In this document: piece after piece, positions 2,384-32,188 of the stretch | How positions within the stretch are numbered: position 1 is the stretch's first letter | Layout of the letters: each line of letters opens with the position of its first letter | Assembly: GCF_041080625.1 (NCBI RefSeq) | Contig: NZ_CP163518.1 | Coordinates: 3,968,001-4,032,000, forward strand | DNA from: Streptomyces sp. CG1 | GTDB lineage: Bacteria > Actinomycetota > Actinomycetes > Streptomycetales > Streptomycetaceae | Length of the DNA stretch: 64,000 nt | Direction: 5' to 3' | Notes under the pieces: model-generated | Told to the model about the DNA's origin: nothing | The model's input: the letters and a program-made list of their open reading frames with translations, nothing else | The model's database searches: none | Position numbers and translations under genes: made by a program

Positions 2384-3910
2384 GTGGATGGAACGCACAC
2401 CATGCCGGAGACGATCACCCCAGCCGTCCCACCGACCCCACCCGTAACGCTCTCGGCGCTGCTGGCCCGCGAGGATCTCGCCCTGCGGCAGATCGCGGGC
2501 CCGACGGATCAGGGGACCGTGATCCACTGGGCGCACACCTCGGAGATGGCCGACCCGTACCCGTATCTGCTGGGCGGCGAGCTGCTGCTGACGGCCGGGG
2601 TGCACATCCCGGAGGCGGCGGATTCAGAGGGGGGCGCCCCCGGTCAGGCGAAGTCGAGACTGGGGGAGTACTTCGACGGCTACGTCTCCCGGATCGTCGC
2701 GGCGGGCGGCGCGGCCCTCGGCTTCGGTCTGGCCCCGGTGCACGACACGGTCCCGCCGGCACTGGTCGCGGCCTGCGAGCACCACGGCCTCCCGCTGCTG
2801 GAGGTGCCGCCGCAGACCACGTTCTCCGGCGTGGCCCGCGCGGTGTGGCAGCTGATGGCCCAGGCTCGGCTGGCCGAACTGCGCCGCGTCACGGAGGCCC
2901 AGCAGAGCCTCGCCTCCGCCGCGGCCCGCCCCGACCCGGTCCCCTCGGTCCTACGGCAACTGGCCCAGCGCCTGGCCGGCCGGGCGGTGCTCCACGGCCC
3001 CGATGGCACGGAGATCGCCTCGGCGGGCCGGGAGGCGGGGCCGGGCGTACGGGAGGCGCTGACGGACCTGGCGGGGGTGGTACGGCCGACCGGGGCGGGC
3101 ACCCCCACCTCCGCCACCGACACGCTCGGGGACACCCACCTCGCCGCCTACGCCCTCGGTTCGGGCGAGGGTTTCGTCCTGGGCGTGGCCACCGCGCGGC
3201 GCGAACCCGGCGACCACACCATCGCCTCCGTGGCCTCCGTACTGCTGTCGCTGCTGACCGGGGAGCATCACAGCGGGGCCGGGGCCGCGCGGTCCTCGGC
3301 GTTCGTGCGGCTGCTGCTCGGGGCGCGCCCGGAGGAGGTCGCTCCGCTGCTCGGCGAGGGGAGCTGGGTCGTCGTACACGCCCGGCCCGAGGCACAGCTT
3401 CCGGACGCCGTCGCCGCCTCGGCGCTCGGCGCCGCGCTGGGCTCACCGCTGGTCGACCTCGCGCGCGATGTCGTACGGGTGCTGGTGCCGGGCGGGCGGG
3501 TACCGGAGCCGCAGCCCGGCTGGGCGCTCGGGGTGAGCGCCGCGGTGGAGCCGCGTGCGTGGCCGGCCGCCGACACCCAGGCGGCCCGCGCCCTGGCCCG
3601 CGCCCGCGCCACCCGCACCCCGCTGATCCGGCACGGCGCCCGCCCGGGCCTGGCGGACCTGGTCCCGCGGGCGGACGCCGAGACCCACGCCCGCGCACTG
3701 CTGGCACCACTCACCGGCCGGCCCGAGCTCACCGAGACCCTGCGCAACTGGCTTGCTTTGCACGGCAGTTGGGACCGCACGGCAGTGGCCATGGACGTGC
3801 ACCGCAACACGGTGCGCCAACGCATCGCCCGCTGCGCGGCCCTGCTGCACACCGATTTGGACGACCCGGACGTCCGCATGGAGTTGTGGTTCGCGCTGCG
3901 GCATGGCTGA
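2384..3910 (+). CDS. PucR-family transcriptional regulator
   Basis: Regulator of 508 residues with an N-terminal PucR ligand domain (about residues 25-160) and a C-terminal PucR helix-turn-helix (about 445-505; note LHGSWDRTAVAMDVHRNTVRQR). PucR proteins typically control nitrogen or purine catabolism, and this one is divergent from the symporter-ureohydrolase pair, its likely target. The start at 2384 follows a purine-rich GGGGGGAAG; an in-frame ATG at 2402 is an alternative. Around residues 83-96 there is a low-complexity stretch with a rare AGA codon that looks like an in-frame insertion (see findings). Confidence 0.88.
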   Translation: MDGTHTMPETITPAVPPTPPVTLSALLAREDLALRQIAGPTDQGTVIHWAHTSEMADPYPYLLGGELLLTAGVHIPEAADSEGGAPGQAKSRLGEYFDGYVSRIVAAGGAALGFGLAPVHDTVPPALVAACEHHGLPLLEVPPQTTFSGVARAVWQLMAQARLAELRRVTEAQQSLASAAARPDPVPSVLRQLAQRLAGRAVLHGPDGTEIASAGREAGPGVREALTDLAGVVRPTGAGTPTSATDTLGDTHLAAYALGSGEGFVLGVATARREPGDHTIASVASVLLSLLTGEHHSGAGAARSSAFVRLLLGARPEEVAPLLGEGSWVVVHARPEAQLPDAVAASALGAALGSPLVDLARDVVRVLVPGGRVPEPQPGWALGVSAAVEPRAWPAADTQAARALARARATRTPLIRHGARPGLADLVPRADAETHARALLAPLTGRPELTETLRNWLALHGSWDRTAVAMDVHRNTVRQRIARCAALLHTDLDDPDVRMELWFALRHG

Positions 3911-7621: not shown

Positions 7622-8224
7622 TCACTCCTCGTCGGCACCCGCCGCCTCGAACGCGCCGCACGCCATCCGGTGCAGCAGCGCCGCCGTCGTCCCCCGGCCG
7701 GGCAGCGTGCCCGCGCGGCCGAGGTGCGGGGTGGAGTTCAGCAGGCCGAAGACCGAGTGGACGGCGGAGCGGGCGGCGGGCTCGGTCAGTGCCGGGTACA
7801 CCTCGCGGACCACCTCGACCCACAGCTCGACGTACTGCCGCTGAAGCTGCCGCACCAGCTTGCGGTCGCTGTCGCGCAGGCGGTCCAGCTCGCGGTCGTG
7901 CAGGGTGATCAGGGGACGGTCGTCCAGGGCGAAGTCGATGTGGCCCTCGATCAGGGAGTCCAGGATCCGGCTCGCGGGCACCCCGTCGGCCTCCGCCAGG
8001 CGCCGCTTCGCCCCCGTCAGCAGCTGGCCGCTGATGCCGACCAGCAGCTCGGCGAGCATCGCGTCCTTGCCGGGGAAGTGCCGGTAGAGACCGGGGCCGC
8101 TGATCCCCACCGCGGCGCCTATCTCGTCGACACCGACGCCGTGGAAGCCGCGCTCGGCGAAGAGCCGGGCGGCCTCCTTCAGGATCTGCTCGCGGCGGGT
8201 CGGGGCGTCGGTTCTGGTGACCAT
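7622..8224 (-). CDS. TetR-family repressor of the acyl-CoA/leucine catabolic genes
   Basis: TetR regulator of 200 residues. The DNA-binding domain is at residues 10-60 (REQILKEAARLFAERGFHGV then GPGLYRHFPGKDAMLAEL); the C-terminal part is of the TetR_C type. It is divergent from the methylcrotonyl-CoA carboxylase operon and starts the leftward dehydrogenase-thioesterase set. The 107-bp intergenic region holds two copies of a GGTTARCGGTCRTTAAC element, so it probably represses both directions and responds to an acyl-CoA. The effector is inferred from context. Confidence 0.85.
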   Translation of the reverse strand: MVTRTDAPTRREQILKEAARLFAERGFHGVGVDEIGAAVGISGPGLYRHFPGKDAMLAELLVGISGQLLTGAKRRLAEADGVPASRILDSLIEGHIDFALDDRPLITLHDRELDRLRDSDRKLVRQLQRQYVELWVEVVREVYPALTEPAARSAVHSVFGLLNSTPHLGRAGTLPGRGTTAALLHRMACGAFEAAGADEE

Positions 8225-24939: not shown

Positions 24940-26705
24940 GCCTCGCCGATGCCGTGGCCCATCTGTCCCCCGAGCGCTGGGCGAGCGCCAACCGGCTGCT
25001 CATACGCAAGGCGCTCGCCGAGTTCGCCCACGAGCGCCTGATCACGCCCGAGCAGGACGGTGACGGGTACGTCGTCCGCAGTGACGACGGACTGACCTCC
25101 TACCGTTTCTCCGCCGTCCGCCGCGCCCTCGACCACTGGCAGATCGACGCCGGCTCCCTCACCCGGCACCGCGAGGGCACCGAACTCCCGCTCGCCGCAC
25201 TGGACTTCTTCATCGAGCTGAAGACCTCCCTGGGCCTGAGCGACGAGATCCTGCCGGTCTATCTGGAGGAGATCTCCTCCACCCTGTCCGGCACCTGCTA
25301 CAAGCTCACCAAGCCCCGCATCACCTCCGCGGAGCTGGCGGGCGGCGGCTTCCAGGCGATCGAGACCGGGATGACCGAGGGCCACCCCTGTTTCGTCGCG
25401 AACAACGGGCGGCTCGGGTTCGGCATCCACGAGTACCTGTCGTACGCCCCGGAGACCGCGAACCCCGTCCGGCTGGTGTGGCTCGCGGCGCACCGATCCC
25501 GGGCCGCGTTCACGGCGGGCGTCGGGATCGAGTACGAGGAGTTCCTGCGGGAGGAGCTGGGCGAGAAGACGCTGGACCGTTTCCGCGCCACGCTGACCGA
25601 GCAGGGCCTCGACCCGGCCGACTACCTGCTCATCCCGGTCCACCCCTGGCAGTGGTGGAACAAGCTCTCCGTCACCTTCGCGGCCGAGGTGGCCCGCCGG
25701 CATCTGGTCTGCCTCGGCGAGGGTGACGACGAGTATCTGGCCCAGCAGTCCATCCGGACCTTCTTCAACTCCTCCCACCCGGAGAAGCACTATGTGAAGA
25801 CGGCCCTGTCCGTGCTCAACATGGGCTTCATGCGCGGCCTTTCGGCCGCCTACATGGAGGCCACGCCCGCCATCAACGACTGGCTGGCCCAGCTGATCGA
25901 GAACGACCCGGTGCTGCAGGCGACGGGCCTGTCGATCATCCGGGAGCGGGCGGCCGTGGGCTACCGGCACCTGGAGTACGAGCAGGCCACCGACCGCCAT
26001 TCGCCGTACCGCAAGATGCTGGCCGCGCTGTGGCGGGAGAGCCCCGTGCCCTCGCTGCAGGAGGGTGAGTCGCTCGCGACCATGGCCTCCCTGCTGCACG
26101 TCGACCACGCCGGCGCCTCCTTCGCGGGCGCGCTGATCGAGCGGTCCGGGCTCACCCCGACGCAGTGGCTCCGCCGCTATCTGCGGGCGTACTACACCCC
26201 GCTGCTGCACAGCTTCTACGCCTACGACCTGGCGTTCATGCCGCACGGCGAGAACGTCGTCCTGGTCCTGAAGGACGGGGTCGTGGAGCGGGCGGTCTAC
26301 AAGGACATCGCCGAGGAGATCGTGGTGATGGACCCGGACGCGGTGCTGCCGCCGGAGGTCCGCCGGATCCGGGTGGAGGTCCCCGAGGACGAGAAGCTGC
26401 TGTCCCTCTTCACGGACGTCTTCGACTGCTTCTTCCGCTTCCTCGCCGCGCACCTCGCGACCGAGGGGATCCTGGACGAGGACGACTTCTGGCGCACGGT
26501 CGCCGAGGTCACCCGCGCGTACCAGGACGCGAACCCCGAACTGGCCGACAAGTTCCGGCAGTACGACATGTTCGCCCCCGAGTTCGCGCTGTCCTGCCTC
26601 AACCGGCTCCAGCTGCGCGACAACCGGCAGATGGTGGACCTGGCGGATCCATCGGGCGCCCTCCAGCTGGTCGGAACCCTGAAAAATCCCATCGCGGGGT
26701 TCTGA
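24936..26705 (+). CDS. desD: Desferrioxamine synthetase (NIS family)
   Basis: NRPS-independent siderophore synthetase of 589 residues (IucA/IucC type), which adenylates succinyl-hydroxycadaverine carboxyls with ATP and joins and cyclises three units to desferrioxamine E or related chains. EGHPCFVANNGRLGFG, IPVHPWQWWNKLS and IRTFFNSSHPEKHYVKTALSV-type blocks (ATP and substrate residues) and a C-terminal FhuF-like region are recognisable. It ends seven bases before a strong terminator hairpin, closing the des operon. Confidence 0.95.
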   Translation: MSLADAVAHLSPERWASANRLLIRKALAEFAHERLITPEQDGDGYVVRSDDGLTSYRFSAVRRALDHWQIDAGSLTRHREGTELPLAALDFFIELKTSLGLSDEILPVYLEEISSTLSGTCYKLTKPRITSAELAGGGFQAIETGMTEGHPCFVANNGRLGFGIHEYLSYAPETANPVRLVWLAAHRSRAAFTAGVGIEYEEFLREELGEKTLDRFRATLTEQGLDPADYLLIPVHPWQWWNKLSVTFAAEVARRHLVCLGEGDDEYLAQQSIRTFFNSSHPEKHYVKTALSVLNMGFMRGLSAAYMEATPAINDWLAQLIENDPVLQATGLSIIRERAAVGYRHLEYEQATDRHSPYRKMLAALWRESPVPSLQEGESLATMASLLHVDHAGASFAGALIERSGLTPTQWLRRYLRAYYTPLLHSFYAYDLAFMPHGENVVLVLKDGVVERAVYKDIAEEIVVMDPDAVLPPEVRRIRVEVPEDEKLLSLFTDVFDCFFRFLAAHLATEGILDEDDFWRTVAEVTRAYQDANPELADKFRQYDMFAPEFALSCLNRLQLRDNRQMVDLADPSGALQLVGTLKNPIAGF

Positions 26706-26711
26706 TCCAGA

Positions 26712-26754
26712 CCGACGGGCTCCCCGCAGTACGGTCCTGCGGGGAGCCCGTCGG
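26712..26754. terminator. Perfect bidirectional terminator after desD
   Basis: An 18-bp perfect stem (26712-26729 with 26737-26754; arm CCGACGGGCTCCCCGCAG) and loop TACGGTC separate the convergent desD and tgm methyltransferase genes. A close relative with the same loop lies at 32234-32272, at the other end of the accessory island. Confidence 0.9.
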
Positions 26755-27876
26755 CTACCAACTGTAGGTCTGCCCCTCCGGCGTGACGCGGAGCGTAAAC
26801 CGCTCCAGCCCAGGTGCTCCAGCGGCATGCCAGCGGCCCAGCTGGTCTTCGGCAACGTCCCACAGAGCGCCCGGGCCGCCCTGCCGCACAGTCCACCGGC
26901 CGTCCTCCCGGTAGAGAGCGGCCCATGAGCCGGACTCGACGTCGATCAGGACATCCTCCTGGCGCCCGTCTCGTTCCATGGTCAGACGCTGGCCGTCGGG
27001 TACCACGGACTGCACGACGAAGCGGGACGTCCAGTCGTCCAGAGCACCGGCTCCCATGACGGTCTCGCGTTCCTCGCCCGCGCTGAGATCCGGCAGCAGA
27101 CCAAGAGCTGGCGGCAGCTGCGTGCGCGCGAGCATGAAGCTCACCCGGCCGCCCAGCAGCGGCCCGGATGCGGTGCCGTCGTCATGCACCGTCAGCGGAG
27201 CGAGTTCCGAGGCACCCAGCCAGCCGCCCGCAGTCGTCAAGATCTCCCCGCCGGGCCGGGTCTGCTCCACCCACTCCGAGGGCACCATACGCACGCCGCA
27301 GGTGGCAATGATCCGATCGTACGGCGCTCCCTTGGCGAAGCCGAGCAAACCGTCGCCGGTGACAAGCGTGGGGTACATCCGTACCCGGGCGAGGGCCGTC
27401 TGCGCTCGCGCGGATACCGCTTCGTAGTACTCGACGGAGGTGACGAAGTCGTCGCCCAGCCGGGCGCAGAGCAGCGCGGTCGAGTAGCCGGTGCCAGTGC
27501 CGATCTCCAGCACCGTCGCACCCGGCTCGACCCGCAGCTCCTCCAGCATGCGCATCACGAGGGAGGGCAGCGTGCTCGAACTGCTCGGCTCACGCCGGAC
27601 CTCCCCACGGATGTCCGCCGGCACGATCGTGTTCGCGATCTGCGTCACGAGCGACTCGTCTGCGTAGCAGCCCTGGATCCAGTCGGCGCTGCTCTCCAAC
27701 ACAGGACGCCAGGCCGCGGGGAAAGCGTTCGGAACCCGGCGGAAGAAGCCGTCGCGGAGGAACTCGTGCCACGGAACTGACTCCACTGCCCGCCTCCACG
27801 GCTCGGTGCACAGCGCCCCTGTCCGTTCCAGACGATCGACCAACTTCTGGTGCAGCTGCGCCACTTCGGTGCTCAC
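26755..27876 (-). CDS. tgmC: PIMT-like methyltransferase of graspetide maturation
   Basis: Protein-isoaspartate-methyltransferase-like enzyme of 373 residues, of the type annotated as ATP-grasp peptide maturase system methyltransferase. The PIMT core has SLVMRMLEELRVEPGATVL followed by EIGTGTGYSTALLCARL (SAM motif I) and YDRIIATCGVRMVPSEW; a C-terminal extension of about 130 residues is characteristic of this RiPP subgroup. In related systems it methylates an Asp of the crosslinked peptide, giving an aspartimide. The GTG at 27874-27876 is chosen for GAGAGGAC upstream and its GTGA overlap with the ATP-grasp gene. Confidence 0.88.
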   Translation of the reverse strand: MSTEVAQLHQKLVDRLERTGALCTEPWRRAVESVPWHEFLRDGFFRRVPNAFPAAWRPVLESSADWIQGCYADESLVTQIANTIVPADIRGEVRREPSSSSTLPSLVMRMLEELRVEPGATVLEIGTGTGYSTALLCARLGDDFVTSVEYYEAVSARAQTALARVRMYPTLVTGDGLLGFAKGAPYDRIIATCGVRMVPSEWVEQTRPGGEILTTAGGWLGASELAPLTVHDDGTASGPLLGGRVSFMLARTQLPPALGLLPDLSAGEERETVMGAGALDDWTSRFVVQSVVPDGQRLTMERDGRQEDVLIDVESGSWAALYREDGRWTVRQGGPGALWDVAEDQLGRWHAAGAPGLERFTLRVTPEGQTYSW

Positions 27877-28745
27877 GTCGTCCTCTCCAGTAGCTCCGCC
27901 ATGGCATCGAGCATCGGCAGACCGGTCTCGGGCTCCAGCCAGTACCACTGGCCGGACGGGGCGGCCGGGGCCGGGAGCGACGCCCTGATCCGTGGCGGGG
28001 GCTCCACGGGGGTGTACTTCAGACGGCTGTAGTCGGTGCGCCAGTCCAGCAGGTCGGAGTCGATCCGGACGCAGAACACCCGCGTGCCGATGACCGTGAC
28101 CCGGACGTCCGCCGACTTGAGGACGCGCTCCTGGAAGAGGTGTGCAGTCCCGGCCACATGGTCGTCGATGTCCTCGGCGGCGACCTCGGCGATCCTGACG
28201 ACGGACGAAACACCGTCGACGTGATAGGCAGGATTCGACAACGGCTTGTAGATGACCGAGTGGTGGCGTTCGACGAAGGCCCGGGCGGCATCCGGGCTGG
28301 AGGTGATGAGCGTGACCGGCAGGTCGAATCCGGCCCCGGCCGCCGCAGCGAGGCTGGACGGCTTGAACTCGGCGTCGCCGAAGCTGTGCGGGTGGTTGAC
28401 GTACAGGCAGCCGGGCAGGGACGCGAGCACGCCTCCGAGTCCGTACCGTGCCTGGGTGACGGCGAACCGAGCGTCCTGCTCGGTCAGGTGCGGGAAAGCA
28501 AACCCAGTCGGGCGACGGTAGTACAGGGATCGAACGGCGGCCAGGTCGGCGGTCCGGGTGGGGGTGAGGAGGCGGCCCTGCACGCCGTGCTGGGTGATCT
28601 CGGCCTCCACCGACAGTGATGCGGGGAAATCCCCGGAGTCGAGCCGCACGACCGGGACGCCCCGGTCATGCAGTTCACGGATCACCACGTCGGCGGTGGG
28701 GTCGTACAGGCTGGTGACGACCAGCACCGGACGTGGATCACTCAC
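27873..28745 (-). CDS. tgmB: ATP-grasp peptide macrocyclase (graspetide synthetase)
   Basis: ATP-grasp ligase of 290 residues of the MvdD/TgmB type, which phosphorylates Asp or Glu side chains of a precursor and joins them to Ser/Thr or Lys side chains. It has the pre-ATP-grasp domain typical of RiPP maturases (VLVVTSLYDPTADVVIREL, SLYYRRPTGF), then the ATP-grasp fold with SVIYKPLSNPAY and HLFQERVLKSADVRVTVIG, and the DLLDWRTDY metal/ATP region. The GTG start overlaps the precursor stop and its own stop overlaps the methyltransferase start, so all three are coupled. Confidence 0.9.
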   Translation of the reverse strand: MSDPRPVLVVTSLYDPTADVVIRELHDRGVPVVRLDSGDFPASLSVEAEITQHGVQGRLLTPTRTADLAAVRSLYYRRPTGFAFPHLTEQDARFAVTQARYGLGGVLASLPGCLYVNHPHSFGDAEFKPSSLAAAAGAGFDLPVTLITSSPDAARAFVERHHSVIYKPLSNPAYHVDGVSSVVRIAEVAAEDIDDHVAGTAHLFQERVLKSADVRVTVIGTRVFCVRIDSDLLDWRTDYSRLKYTPVEPPPRIRASLPAPAAPSGQWYWLEPETGLPMLDAMAELLERTT

Positions 28746-29038
28746 TGGTCGCCATCGCTCCCCTGGTCGGAGTCCGTGTTGCCCTGGCCCTGCCCGTCGG
28801 GGCTGGTGCCCGTCGACGGGGTGGTGCCGGTGCTGGTGCCGTGGCCGGGCATCTCAAGGACATGGCCGTCGGCATCGAAGAACACGGCGACCTGGGTGCT
28901 CGGGTCCAGTGCGGCGAGCGCATAGCCCGGGGCCGTCGTCGGATAGGGGGCCATGCGGCTCACCCCCCACGGGGCTGGGGTGCGGGTGCCGGATGGCCGC
29001 GGCGTCTCGGTCGGGAAGCGGTCGGAGTGGACGAACAA
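28742..29038 (-). CDS. tgmA: Graspetide precursor peptide (putative ATP-grasp-modified RiPP)
   Basis: Precursor of 98 residues starting at TTG 29036-29038, with AAGGAG six bases upstream; an ATG nine codons earlier has no good site. The leader shows the family pattern PWGVSRMAPYP, then LDPSTQVAVFFDADGHVLEM (residues 44-63), which the ATP-grasp enzyme is thought to read. The core, about residues 64-98, is Thr/Ser-rich first (HGTSTGTTPSTGTS) and Asp-rich later (PDGQGQGNTDSDQGSDGDQ), as expected for Thr/Ser-to-Asp ester links. Two Asp-Gly pairs (residues 81-82 and 95-96) are candidate aspartimide sites. Confidence 0.85.
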   Translation of the reverse strand: MFVHSDRFPTETPRPSGTRTPAPWGVSRMAPYPTTAPGYALAALDPSTQVAVFFDADGHVLEMPGHGTSTGTTPSTGTSPDGQGQGNTDSDQGSDGDQ

Positions 29039-29161
29039 GGTGTACTCCTTCGATGTTCGAGTCATTGATGCACCCGCTGCGGATCGCTCCGAGTGGGGCC
29101 CCTGCCCTTCCTGCCGAAGCCTTGCGGCACCGGCAGGAAGAAGCGTTTTGGGGATGCGGAT

Positions 29162-30254: not shown

Positions 30255-31442
30255 TCAGATGGCGGCGCACCACTCTGCGAAGTTGGTGAGCGACTCGGAG
30301 TCGGCTCGCTTCAATCGGCGTAGTGTCGCGGCATCTTGACGGACCCAGGGGTGTTCACGCGTGTGTTGCGGTGCAATGTGACGGGCCACCTTCAGCGACT
30401 CGAACGCGTCGTCGGGGAGCCCAGACCAAAGCTGAGCACGGGCCAGTTCGATGTAGAAGCCACTGCGGCGTTCGGCGGGGAGATCCTTGGGCGGCTTCCA
30501 CTCATCGGCAATTTCAAGAGCACGCCCGACATGTTCGTCTCCGAGGCTGACGGCTACGGACACCTCGTGAGTCCGTACGGACTCGGGACCGAACGCGATG
30601 CCGCAGTACACACCTTCAGTGACACGGTCACCGAACTCGCGAGCCTCCGACAGGTGGCTGACAGCCGTCGAAGCGTCGCGTGCGCGACTGGCAATAACGG
30701 CGGCCCTCATGTGCAGCGAACCCCGTGCTGCGATCTCCGGGGCTGTGACGGGGGCGGGCGCTGCGTTCAGCGCTTGATGCAGCGCCCGCAAGCCTGACAG
30801 GTACGCACGGGCAGCAAAGAACGTCTCAGTGCGCACGTAAGCCACAGACGCCGAGAGGAGAGGATCCTCTGCTTCGGGGGTGGCCCACCGCATGACATCA
30901 ATGAGGCGGGCGGACAGATCCCGTGCGCCGAACTTGTACGCGACGGCATCAGCAGAGCGGCATGCCCTCACCAGGAGACCTGCCGCTTTCGCCCGTTCAT
31001 CCGGTACTGCGACGTGATAGGCGCGCAGGAGTTCTGTGAGCAGGCCGGGCAGCTCGCGGGCGATCTGGGTGTACTGAGCCGCGAGCCTCCACTGTGTTGC
31101 CTCCTGGACAGCCTCCCGCAGCTCGTGCCGCACCCGGACGGGGCCGTCCTCGGGCAGATCGTAGGCGGCGATGGCGGCGGAAAGGGCGGGCAGCGCATCG
31201 TGTACGCGGGTCTGCGCCACGTCGCGGTCTGTGCGCAGTCGGGCAGGATCGACACCGAGGGCGTCCGCGATCGCATCGAGAGTCGAGTCGCTCACGCCGC
31301 GCTCACCGCGTTCGATCTTGCGGATGGTTCCGAGGGCGACGCATGCCGCTTCAGCGAGTTGCTGCTGCGTCAGCTTCGGGCGCATGACACTGCGGTAGTA
31401 GGCGATCCGGTCACCAACTCCGCCACGGGGACGTAAGGGCAT
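30255..31442 (-). CDS. XRE-family regulator with TPR-like C-terminus and a TTA codon
   Basis: About 395 residues: an XRE helix-turn-helix at about residues 12-70 (LTQQQLAEAACVALGTIRKIERGERGVSD) and a long helical repeat region resembling TPR domains of signal-responsive Streptomyces regulators. The third codon after the ATG at 31440-31442 is TTA (31434-31436), the rare leucine codon read by the bldA tRNA, so translation should be delayed to late growth. An upstream start at 31463 would still include it. Codon use and GC are lower than in flanking core genes. It probably controls the genes leftward of it. Confidence 0.8.
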   Translation of the reverse strand: MPLRPRGGVGDRIAYYRSVMRPKLTQQQLAEAACVALGTIRKIERGERGVSDSTLDAIADALGVDPARLRTDRDVAQTRVHDALPALSAAIAAYDLPEDGPVRVRHELREAVQEATQWRLAAQYTQIARELPGLLTELLRAYHVAVPDERAKAAGLLVRACRSADAVAYKFGARDLSARLIDVMRWATPEAEDPLLSASVAYVRTETFFAARAYLSGLRALHQALNAAPAPVTAPEIAARGSLHMRAAVIASRARDASTAVSHLSEAREFGDRVTEGVYCGIAFGPESVRTHEVSVAVSLGDEHVGRALEIADEWKPPKDLPAERRSGFYIELARAQLWSGLPDDAFESLKVARHIAPQHTREHPWVRQDAATLRRLKRADSESLTNFAEWCAAI

Positions 31443-31546
31443 ACTGGCTCCAGTTCGACGCATCCGCTCCGAACGTACTCGTGGCCGTGCACCGCGTGCA
31501 CAGTAACGACCGCAGCGGCGCCCGTTGGTGCTGCCGTTCGCAGGTC

Positions 31547-32188
31547 TCAGTCACAGAGGAGCGCAGCAAGCTCGCCGAGGCTGTCGATCCGCCAATCCAC
31601 CGCAGCAATCACGTCCGGGTCGTCTGCCCACAGATGTCCCCACGGTCCACGGCGGATGTGAGCCGTGCGCAGTCCGGCTTCTTTCGCTGGAAAAACGTCA
31701 TTCGCCGGGTGGTCTCCCACGTACACAGTGCGCTGTGGAGGAGCCTGCCCCGCCTCCACAACTCGCCGGAAGAACTCCGGCTGAGGCTTGGCGACACCCC
31801 ACTCTGCCGATGTCGCGACGACGTCGGCCGGCAGGTCCAGGGCGCGCAGCAGCTCACCGGCTCGGACAGTCTGGTTCCCGGCGATCAACACCCGCACCCC
31901 GTACTGCCGTAGCGTGGTGAGAGCCGGTCGTACGTCCTCGTACAGGTCCGCCTCGCCGAGAGACTCACCGCGCCCCGCTGCTTCCCGAGCCCGGTACTCG
32001 GCAGCGACGTCGATGCCCGGGCGGACGAGTCTGAGGGCCTCTGCGTTGTCCAGGCCTTGGGCCACGACGGCTCCAACGAGCGCGGAAAGAGTATGACGAG
32101 GGACGTCCAGCCAGTCGGCCCAGGACGCCCAGTATCGGTCGTCCCGGGTGATCGTCTCGCCGACGTCGAGCACAACGGTGTCAATCAC
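31547..32188 (-). CDS. HAD-superfamily hydrolase
   Basis: Haloacid-dehalogenase-like hydrolase of 213 residues, probably a small-molecule phosphatase. Motif I is VVLDVGETIT, where the usual DxDxT nucleophile motif reads D-V-G-E-T, a common variant; motif II is around LIAGNQT, Lys in KPQPEFF, and motif IV is VYVGDHPANDV. Start is GTG at 32186-32188. It precedes the XRE regulator gene in the same direction by 104 bases; HAD-XRE pairs recur in Streptomyces. It is the outermost gene of the island. Confidence 0.82.
   Translation of the reverse strand: MIDTVVLDVGETITRDDRYWASWADWLDVPRHTLSALVGAVVAQGLDNAEALRLVRPGIDVAAEYRAREAAGRGESLGEADLYEDVRPALTTLRQYGVRVLIAGNQTVRAGELLRALDLPADVVATSAEWGVAKPQPEFFRRVVEAGQAPPQRTVYVGDHPANDVFPAKEAGLRTAHIRRGPWGHLWADDPDVIAAVDWRIDSLGELAALLCD

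Follow-up and report, generated by a model that had tools for sequence, protein, structure and literature searches.

Three genes on the minus strand at positions 26755-29038 of the 64-kb stretch of DNA analysed here (hereafter the window) very probably constitute an SsfA-type group-13 graspetide cluster whose ATP-grasp synthetase has recently become inactive. This reading is drawn from sequence comparison and centres on an internal in-frame deletion in the synthetase gene.

Gene organisation and family assignment

The span runs exactly from the stop codon of the methyltransferase gene to the TTG start of the precursor gene, and comprises three ORFs (precursor, ATP-grasp protein and PIMT-like methyltransferase) which run leftward. 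The first-pass annotation had described these ORFs as joined by GTGA overlaps, and both four-base overlaps were verified, at 28742-28745 and 27873-27876. The features of the locus are as follows:

29045-29050, minus strand: AAGGAG, a ribosome-binding-like site six bases 5′ of the precursor TTG (from the sequence)
28742-29038, minus strand: precursor peptide, 98 aa, TTG start (TIGR04186, 80.1 bits, cut-off 25; PF14408)
27873-28745, minus strand: gene for the ATP-grasp graspetide synthetase, shortened by an in-frame internal deletion, product 290 aa (TIGR04187, 349.9 bits, cut-off 350)
28330-28344, plus strand: the 15-base filler sequence again, exact but inverted, within the synthetase gene; its likely template (search of the 64-kb window)
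27960-27974, minus strand: deletion junction, 15 bases, CCGGCCCCGGCCGCC, encoding PAPAA (comparison with the relative P0096)
26755-27876, minus strand: PIMT-like (PAMT) methyltransferase, 373 aa, full length (TIGR04188, 422.6 bits, cut-off 380, full model)
26700-26756, minus strand: strong hairpin separating the methyltransferase gene from the convergent DesD-like gene (-46.6 kcal/mol, z -7.8)

All three products match NCBIfam models (E values of 9.3e-23 for the precursor with TIGR04186, 1.2e-104 for the ATP-grasp protein with TIGR04187 and 1.5e-126 for the methyltransferase with TIGR04188) and, in gene order, the Pfam families PF14408, PF21068 and PF01135, so the family assignment is not a matter of chance; the earlier proposal of an ATP-grasp-modified RiPP family with a PIMT-like methyltransferase is thereby upheld. 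Judged by these matches, the locus belongs to the TIGR04186/04187/04188 (GRASP_targ, GRASP_SAV_5884 and methyltr_grsp), group-13 graspetide (‘graspimiditide’) system. The precursor and methyltransferase score above the curated cut-offs, whereas the ATP-grasp protein falls 0.1 bit below its own, with model positions 258-286 absent. Three hallmarks of group 13 are present, namely a GRASP_targ precursor adjoining the synthetase gene (80.1 bits against 25, with the GTGA overlap), a core with a hydroxyl block, a loop Asp-Gly and an acidic block, and a PIMT homologue with an extra C-terminal domain and a WxxxGxP motif (422.6 bits; WHAAGAP at residue 349). The fourth, a complete ATP-grasp enzyme with the conserved D and E-x-N on its C-terminal strands, is lacking in the window synthetase. 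Assignment to the imiditides/pamtides, in which a PAMT is the sole modifying enzyme, was rejected on sequence grounds, since the cluster does carry a synthetase gene, albeit a defective one, and its precursor falls within the graspetide family.

The system itself is already described and common, and the window holds an ordinary system in a defective copy. Of 199 genomes sampled from the genus, 142 have a TIGR04187 match above the cut-off, as against none of the control genomes; at E <= 0.001 the model finds a match in 171 of the 199, yet also in 7 of the 14 controls. Three groups count 1326, 962 and 1432 group-13 graspetide/graspimiditide clusters, with four products characterised (PMC13001092, excerpt), and TIGR04188 methyltransferases rank among the commonest partners of graspetide ATP-grasps (PMC8939145, excerpt).

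The downstream DesB/DesC/DesD-like genes are convergent with the cluster and lie outside the graspetide system; a conserved link to desferrioxamine-like neighbours was considered and dropped, a DesB relative occurring in 1 of 49 related loci and DesC and DesD in none (flanks of up to 7 kb). The hairpin at 26700-26756 has no T-run and is not a canonical terminator, and a terminator scan found no terminator-like site. Upstream, an XRE-type regulator and a HAD hydrolase (30255-31463 and 31547-32188) have counterparts of 65-79% identity in L008, L012 and L019; with weaker matches counted, the regulator is found in 9 of the 49 loci and the hydrolase in 4.

A deletion in the ATP-grasp synthetase gene

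The second gene had been annotated as an ATP-grasp macrocyclase, a description that has to be revised because the gene is internally deleted and the D, E, C and N of its GAFDF/ECN segment are gone. Its product has 290 aa, against 308-317 aa in the 119 other relatives among the matches listed (120 proteins including that of the window, from 903 homologues). Twenty-five alignment columns, seven of them invariant, are missing from the window synthetase and from none of the 119 relatives listed, and the adjacent E-C-N reads P-A-A. As a net change, the 30 residues FRYLDHFGLVFGAFDFCVGGDGRWWFLECN of the intact relative P0096, from Streptomyces sp. NPDC007971, give way to PAPAA in the window synthetase, with loss of both GAFDF and ECN; the PAPAA codons are CCGGCCCCGGCCGCC at 27974-27960. 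The D, C and N are each conserved in 119/119 of the relatives listed and the E in 118/119, the exception being P0195, which has Lys. The equivalent segment reads GALDF/ECN in 9bou and GAIDM/EIN in 5ig9 and 7mgv, three of the solved homologues. We take the D, E and N of this segment to be Mg2+ ligands, as in the ATP-grasp family generally. ATP-grasp enzymes use two Mg2+ ions, both coordinated by a conserved carboxylate on a β-sheet (PMC13397572, excerpt), and the MdnC reaction is abolished on substitution of key residues of the ATP pocket (PMC7823629, excerpt).

Three intact relatives score 429-440 bits against TIGR04187, compared with 349.9 (cut-off 350) for the window synthetase; on alignment to solved synthetases the latter stops at residue 265 or less in all eight matches, while intact P0096 reaches 309-313. 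PruB of Streptomyces coelicolor (PDB 9bou) is the nearest solved structure by both sequence and model comparison, and has an intact ECN motif, which the window synthetase lacks. With narrow alignments as input, AlphaFold2 modelled the window synthetase at pLDDT 53.5 and pTM 0.51, and P0096 at 64.1 and 0.65. In the P0096 model, which is of low-to-middling confidence, the lost residues 258-287 form the end of a helix (251-264) and two strands (268-276 and 281-287), neither of which is present in the window model, of similarly low-to-middling confidence. Foldseek returned 504 matches at E <= 0.001 for the P0096 model and 38 for the window model, with 9bou as the top match for both (E 2.2e-23 against 1.7e-12). 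The models are weak, and play a supporting role only for the loss of the strand pair. Taken from the sequence, we infer that the window synthetase is inactive.

The origin of the junction bears on whether the lesion is real. Within the window, the 15-base filler has one further exact copy, inverted, at 28330-28344 of the same gene and 355 bases upstream; the two form the only inverted repeat of at least 12 bases found in the synthetase gene. Once flanking bases are included, the inverted match is 22 nt long at 86%, GTCG being shared on one side. In a post hoc test, the 15-mer arose on either strand in 3 of 20000 simulated gene-length sequences. The 21-base junction sequence is unique in both the window and the genome, and the 141 bases around the junction contain only short repeats. 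Deletions filled from a nearby inverted site are a hallmark of template switching, so the junction more likely records such a mutation than an error in the reads.

In our estimation it is very unlikely that the deletion is an artefact of assembly, library preparation or sequencing in a strain with an ordinary working cluster. The short form is known from one record only (P0095, represented by a single sequence on a single contig), GC content at the junction is very high, and a chimeric molecule could also give an inverted filler. Against this, a net in-frame loss of 75 bases with a 15-base inverted filler from the same gene is atypical of base-calling error, the assembly consists of 2 contigs and is 100% complete, and relatives also carry lesions, several of them multi-residue deletions. 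The inverted copy of the filler thus lent weight to a genuine inactivating deletion and took it from an artefact. Such a deletion is probably recent, since the rest of the synthetase is not accelerated: outside the gap it is 89% identical to P0096, and a relative-rate count gives 6 changes unique to the window protein against 10 unique to P0096 once the junction is excluded (p 0.45), or 9 against 10 with it included.

Precursor, methyltransferase and predicted consequence

The leader of the window precursor carries PWG...LDPSTQ...EM, and its core is PGHGTSTGTTPSTGTSPDGQGQGNTDSDQGSDGDQ. The TTG start matches the MFVH or MYVH N-terminus of 60 of the 93 precursor relatives; an in-frame ATG at 29065, 27 bases upstream of the TTG, has no ribosome-binding-like site of the kind that precedes the TTG. 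A search at E <= 0.001 gave 94 precursor-family proteins, counting that of the window, and 92 of them have an HGT motif at the start of the core; within this group of 92, the C-terminus is DQ in 88 and the final 12 residues include four Asp in 90. A core with a Thr/Ser block followed by an Asp block had been noted from the letters; a Thr block and an Asp block are indeed there, with the loop Asp-Gly as well. The suggestion that this core is a new sequence did not survive comparison, as P0009 (Streptomyces sp. NPDC059597) has the same 35 residues letter for letter.

On residue positions, SsfA(BM), a pentacyclic isoaspartate graspetide, is the closest characterised relative and a better match than fuscimiditide. 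SsfA(BM) has five esters (from four Asp and, it is suggested, the C-terminus) and isoAsp at 81, and SsfA/SsfB/SsfM of Streptomyces sp. F-3 is likewise a three-gene cluster with a PIMT homologue bearing a C-terminal extension (PMC10787088, excerpt). E62, G77, T78, D81, G82 and four Asp among the last 12 residues of the window precursor agree with SsfA, a comparison confined to published positions, and alignment to relatives together with these SsfA positions indicates that the ring positions are retained. The precursor has 98 aa against 97 in SsfA, its loop is one residue longer, and Q83 stands in place of N83; all SsfA descriptors, N83 and S89 included, are shared by 29 of 46 precursor homologues of 97 aa. 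Unlike the SsfA system, the window synthetase lacks the D/E/N strand pair. The first-pass annotation had named the fuscimiditide type as the characterised relatives: the graspetide family stands, whereas fuscimiditide as the best model was dropped in favour of SsfA. Shared with fuscimiditide (ThfA/ThfB/ThfM) and amycolimiditide are a Thr-Asp ester stem, a loop Asp-Gly and a PIMT homologue acting after cyclisation (excerpts of PMC13001092, PMC12291112 and PMC13003496); these products have two and four esters, respectively, while the window core would fall in a five-Thr / four-Asp-plus-C-terminus class. By analogy, an intact form of the window cluster is expected to give an SsfA-like product of the same kind.

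The methyltransferase has the motif GTGTG at residue 126, and its changes at conserved sites include R36W and D151Y. Compared with the 120-protein set, it is changed at 6/123 of the 97%-conserved columns (the highest), at 5/112 of the 98% columns (joint highest) and at 3/89 of the 99% columns (set maximum 4); in a smaller set it is changed at 5/63 invariant columns, the highest of 50. Relative-rate tests on the methyltransferase were not significant (14 against 9, p 0.40; 17 against 8, p 0.11). These sequence comparisons are suggestive only of relaxed selection.

In an intact cluster, the ATP-grasp enzyme would bind the leader and, using ATP and Mg2+, phosphorylate the four core Asp side chains, plus the C-terminal carboxylate as postulated for SsfA; Thr hydroxyls of the core would then attack to give up to five esters, after which the PAMT would methylate the loop Asp (here D81-G82), leading via an aspartimide to isoaspartate. 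In the window, 30 residues spanning a helix end and two C-terminal strands with the D and E-x-N have been exchanged for PAPAA, probably through template switching to the inverted site 355 bases upstream, from which the 15 bases were copied. The shortened enzyme would presumably be incapable of productive Mg2+-ATP binding and hence form no esters, which would leave the full-length methyltransferase without a substrate. Uncyclised or partly cyclised SsfA precursor was not an efficient substrate of SsfM (PMC10787088, excerpt), and ThfM does not modify the linear precursor (PMC13003496, excerpt). If the window methyltransferase behaves like SsfM, which acts on fully cyclised peptide only, the cluster in its sequenced form probably goes no further than the linear precursor and yields no cyclic peptide. 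The earlier proposal that the first enzyme forms esters and the second an aspartimide is thus unlikely to hold here, the strand pair with D, E and N being gone and SsfM needing a cyclised substrate.

The genome (G000) holds other members of the family. A TIGR04186 precursor at G000:C1:1064074-1065206 (L001, L116) adjoins a full-length ATP-grasp gene; at another, G000:C1:10952752-10953116 (L117, L004), the ATP-grasp match covers the first 51 model positions only, with a TAG. Apart from the full-length enzyme at C1:1064286, two ATP-grasp remnants in the genome carry a TAG. A second TIGR04188-like PAMT (251 bits; L119, G000:C1:3830120-3831031) lies beside a Pro/Gly-rich ORF, which we take to resemble an FHA-domain partner. 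An FHA-domain partner is described in PMC10787088 (excerpt).

The full-length TIGR04187 enzyme at C1:1064286 (387 bits) raises the question of whether another synthetase of the same genome modifies the window precursor in trans, such that the product is still made. This is highly improbable from the sequences, as that enzyme is divergent (34% identity to the window synthetase over 225 residues), belongs to the PruB type, matching 9bou at 534.8 bits where the window synthetase reaches 113.7, and lies beside its own 63-aa precursor, whose leader and core differ from those of the window precursor; leader dependence is moreover described for the graspimiditide synthetase ThfB (PMC13003496, excerpt). 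We give still less credence to a non-catalytic role of the shortened protein, in leader binding or as a scaffold, combined with an imiditide/pamtide-like methyltransferase that modifies the linear core. In its favour, no stop interrupts the shortened frame and the remainder of the synthetase is conserved, there are PAMTs that modify linear peptides (PMC13001092, excerpt), and in one other branch the ATP-grasp protein encoded is typically truncated and without catalytic activity (PMC8939145, excerpt). However, the short form is seen in one genome only, and so gives no sign of having been selected; SsfM handles linear precursor poorly, as noted above, and the window methyltransferase is itself altered at conserved sites, R36W and D151Y among them.

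Inactivation among related loci

Relatives were surveyed in two sets. The first comprises 49 precursor-anchored loci and is biased toward intact precursors. The prediction that the three genes are kept together in related genomes is confirmed here, at least a piece of each lying side by side in 45 of the 49; no match was found for the methyltransferase in L010, L035 and L038, or for the precursor in L054. The synthetase is disrupted in 7 of the 49 (L010, L017, L026, L034, L035, L036 and L038) and the methyltransferase disrupted or not found in 10 (L010, L015, L020, L026, L034, L035, L038, L039, L041 and L046), so that one or both are affected in 12 loci in all. In L015, L020, L036 and L039 a single frameshift is the sole lesion seen, and may be an error in draft assemblies. 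L026 combines a frameshifted synthetase with an incomplete methyltransferase, and in L025 the core is frameshifted despite the bias of the set.

The second set is synthetase-anchored and drawn from the 199 genomes; it covers the stronger and longer matches listed, those with an identity to P0096 of 63% or more. Among the matches listed, the synthetase is disrupted in 7 of 32 loci, that of the window included; residues are lost in G037 and G051, frameshifts occur in G007, G096 and G104, and in G099 the first ~50 synthetase residues and the precursor were not found. The two sets overlap (L038 and G037 are apparently the same locus), and their counts are not additive.

Some loci show particular rearrangements. 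In L034 (S. barkulensis; 7951-8200) the synthetase runs in frame from about residue 234 into the methyltransferase tail at about residue 305, which removes both catalytic regions; in L035 (S. rhizoryzae; 3560-3720) the synthetase match stops at residue 223, and a methyltransferase-like tail follows in another frame, as judged by eye. The precursors of both are intact. L030 (S. olivaceus) has Asn-Gly in place of the loop Asp-Gly, and L036 (S. albus) has lost the motif; from these sequences the target of the methyltransferase may be gone in both.

No publication treating graspetide pseudogenes as such was found, though PMC8939145 (excerpt) mentions the inactive truncated ATP-grasps of another branch. 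We regard it as unlikely that the window is a single case among numerous natural ‘non-producer’ morphs, in which synthetase and methyltransferase are repeatedly knocked out by deletions, frameshifts and fusion while the precursor stays mostly intact. If true, this might reflect selection against making the cyclic peptide, or a role of the unmodified precursor, for example in self-protection, as may be compared with polymorphic bacteriocin loci. Recurring inactivation is the sole aspect of the locus that might be of specialist interest. Gene order alone can hide a cluster that is dead at its first enzyme, which makes the strain unsuited to product isolation, and repeated inactivation raises the testable point that these peptides may be costly, or only conditionally useful, to their makers.
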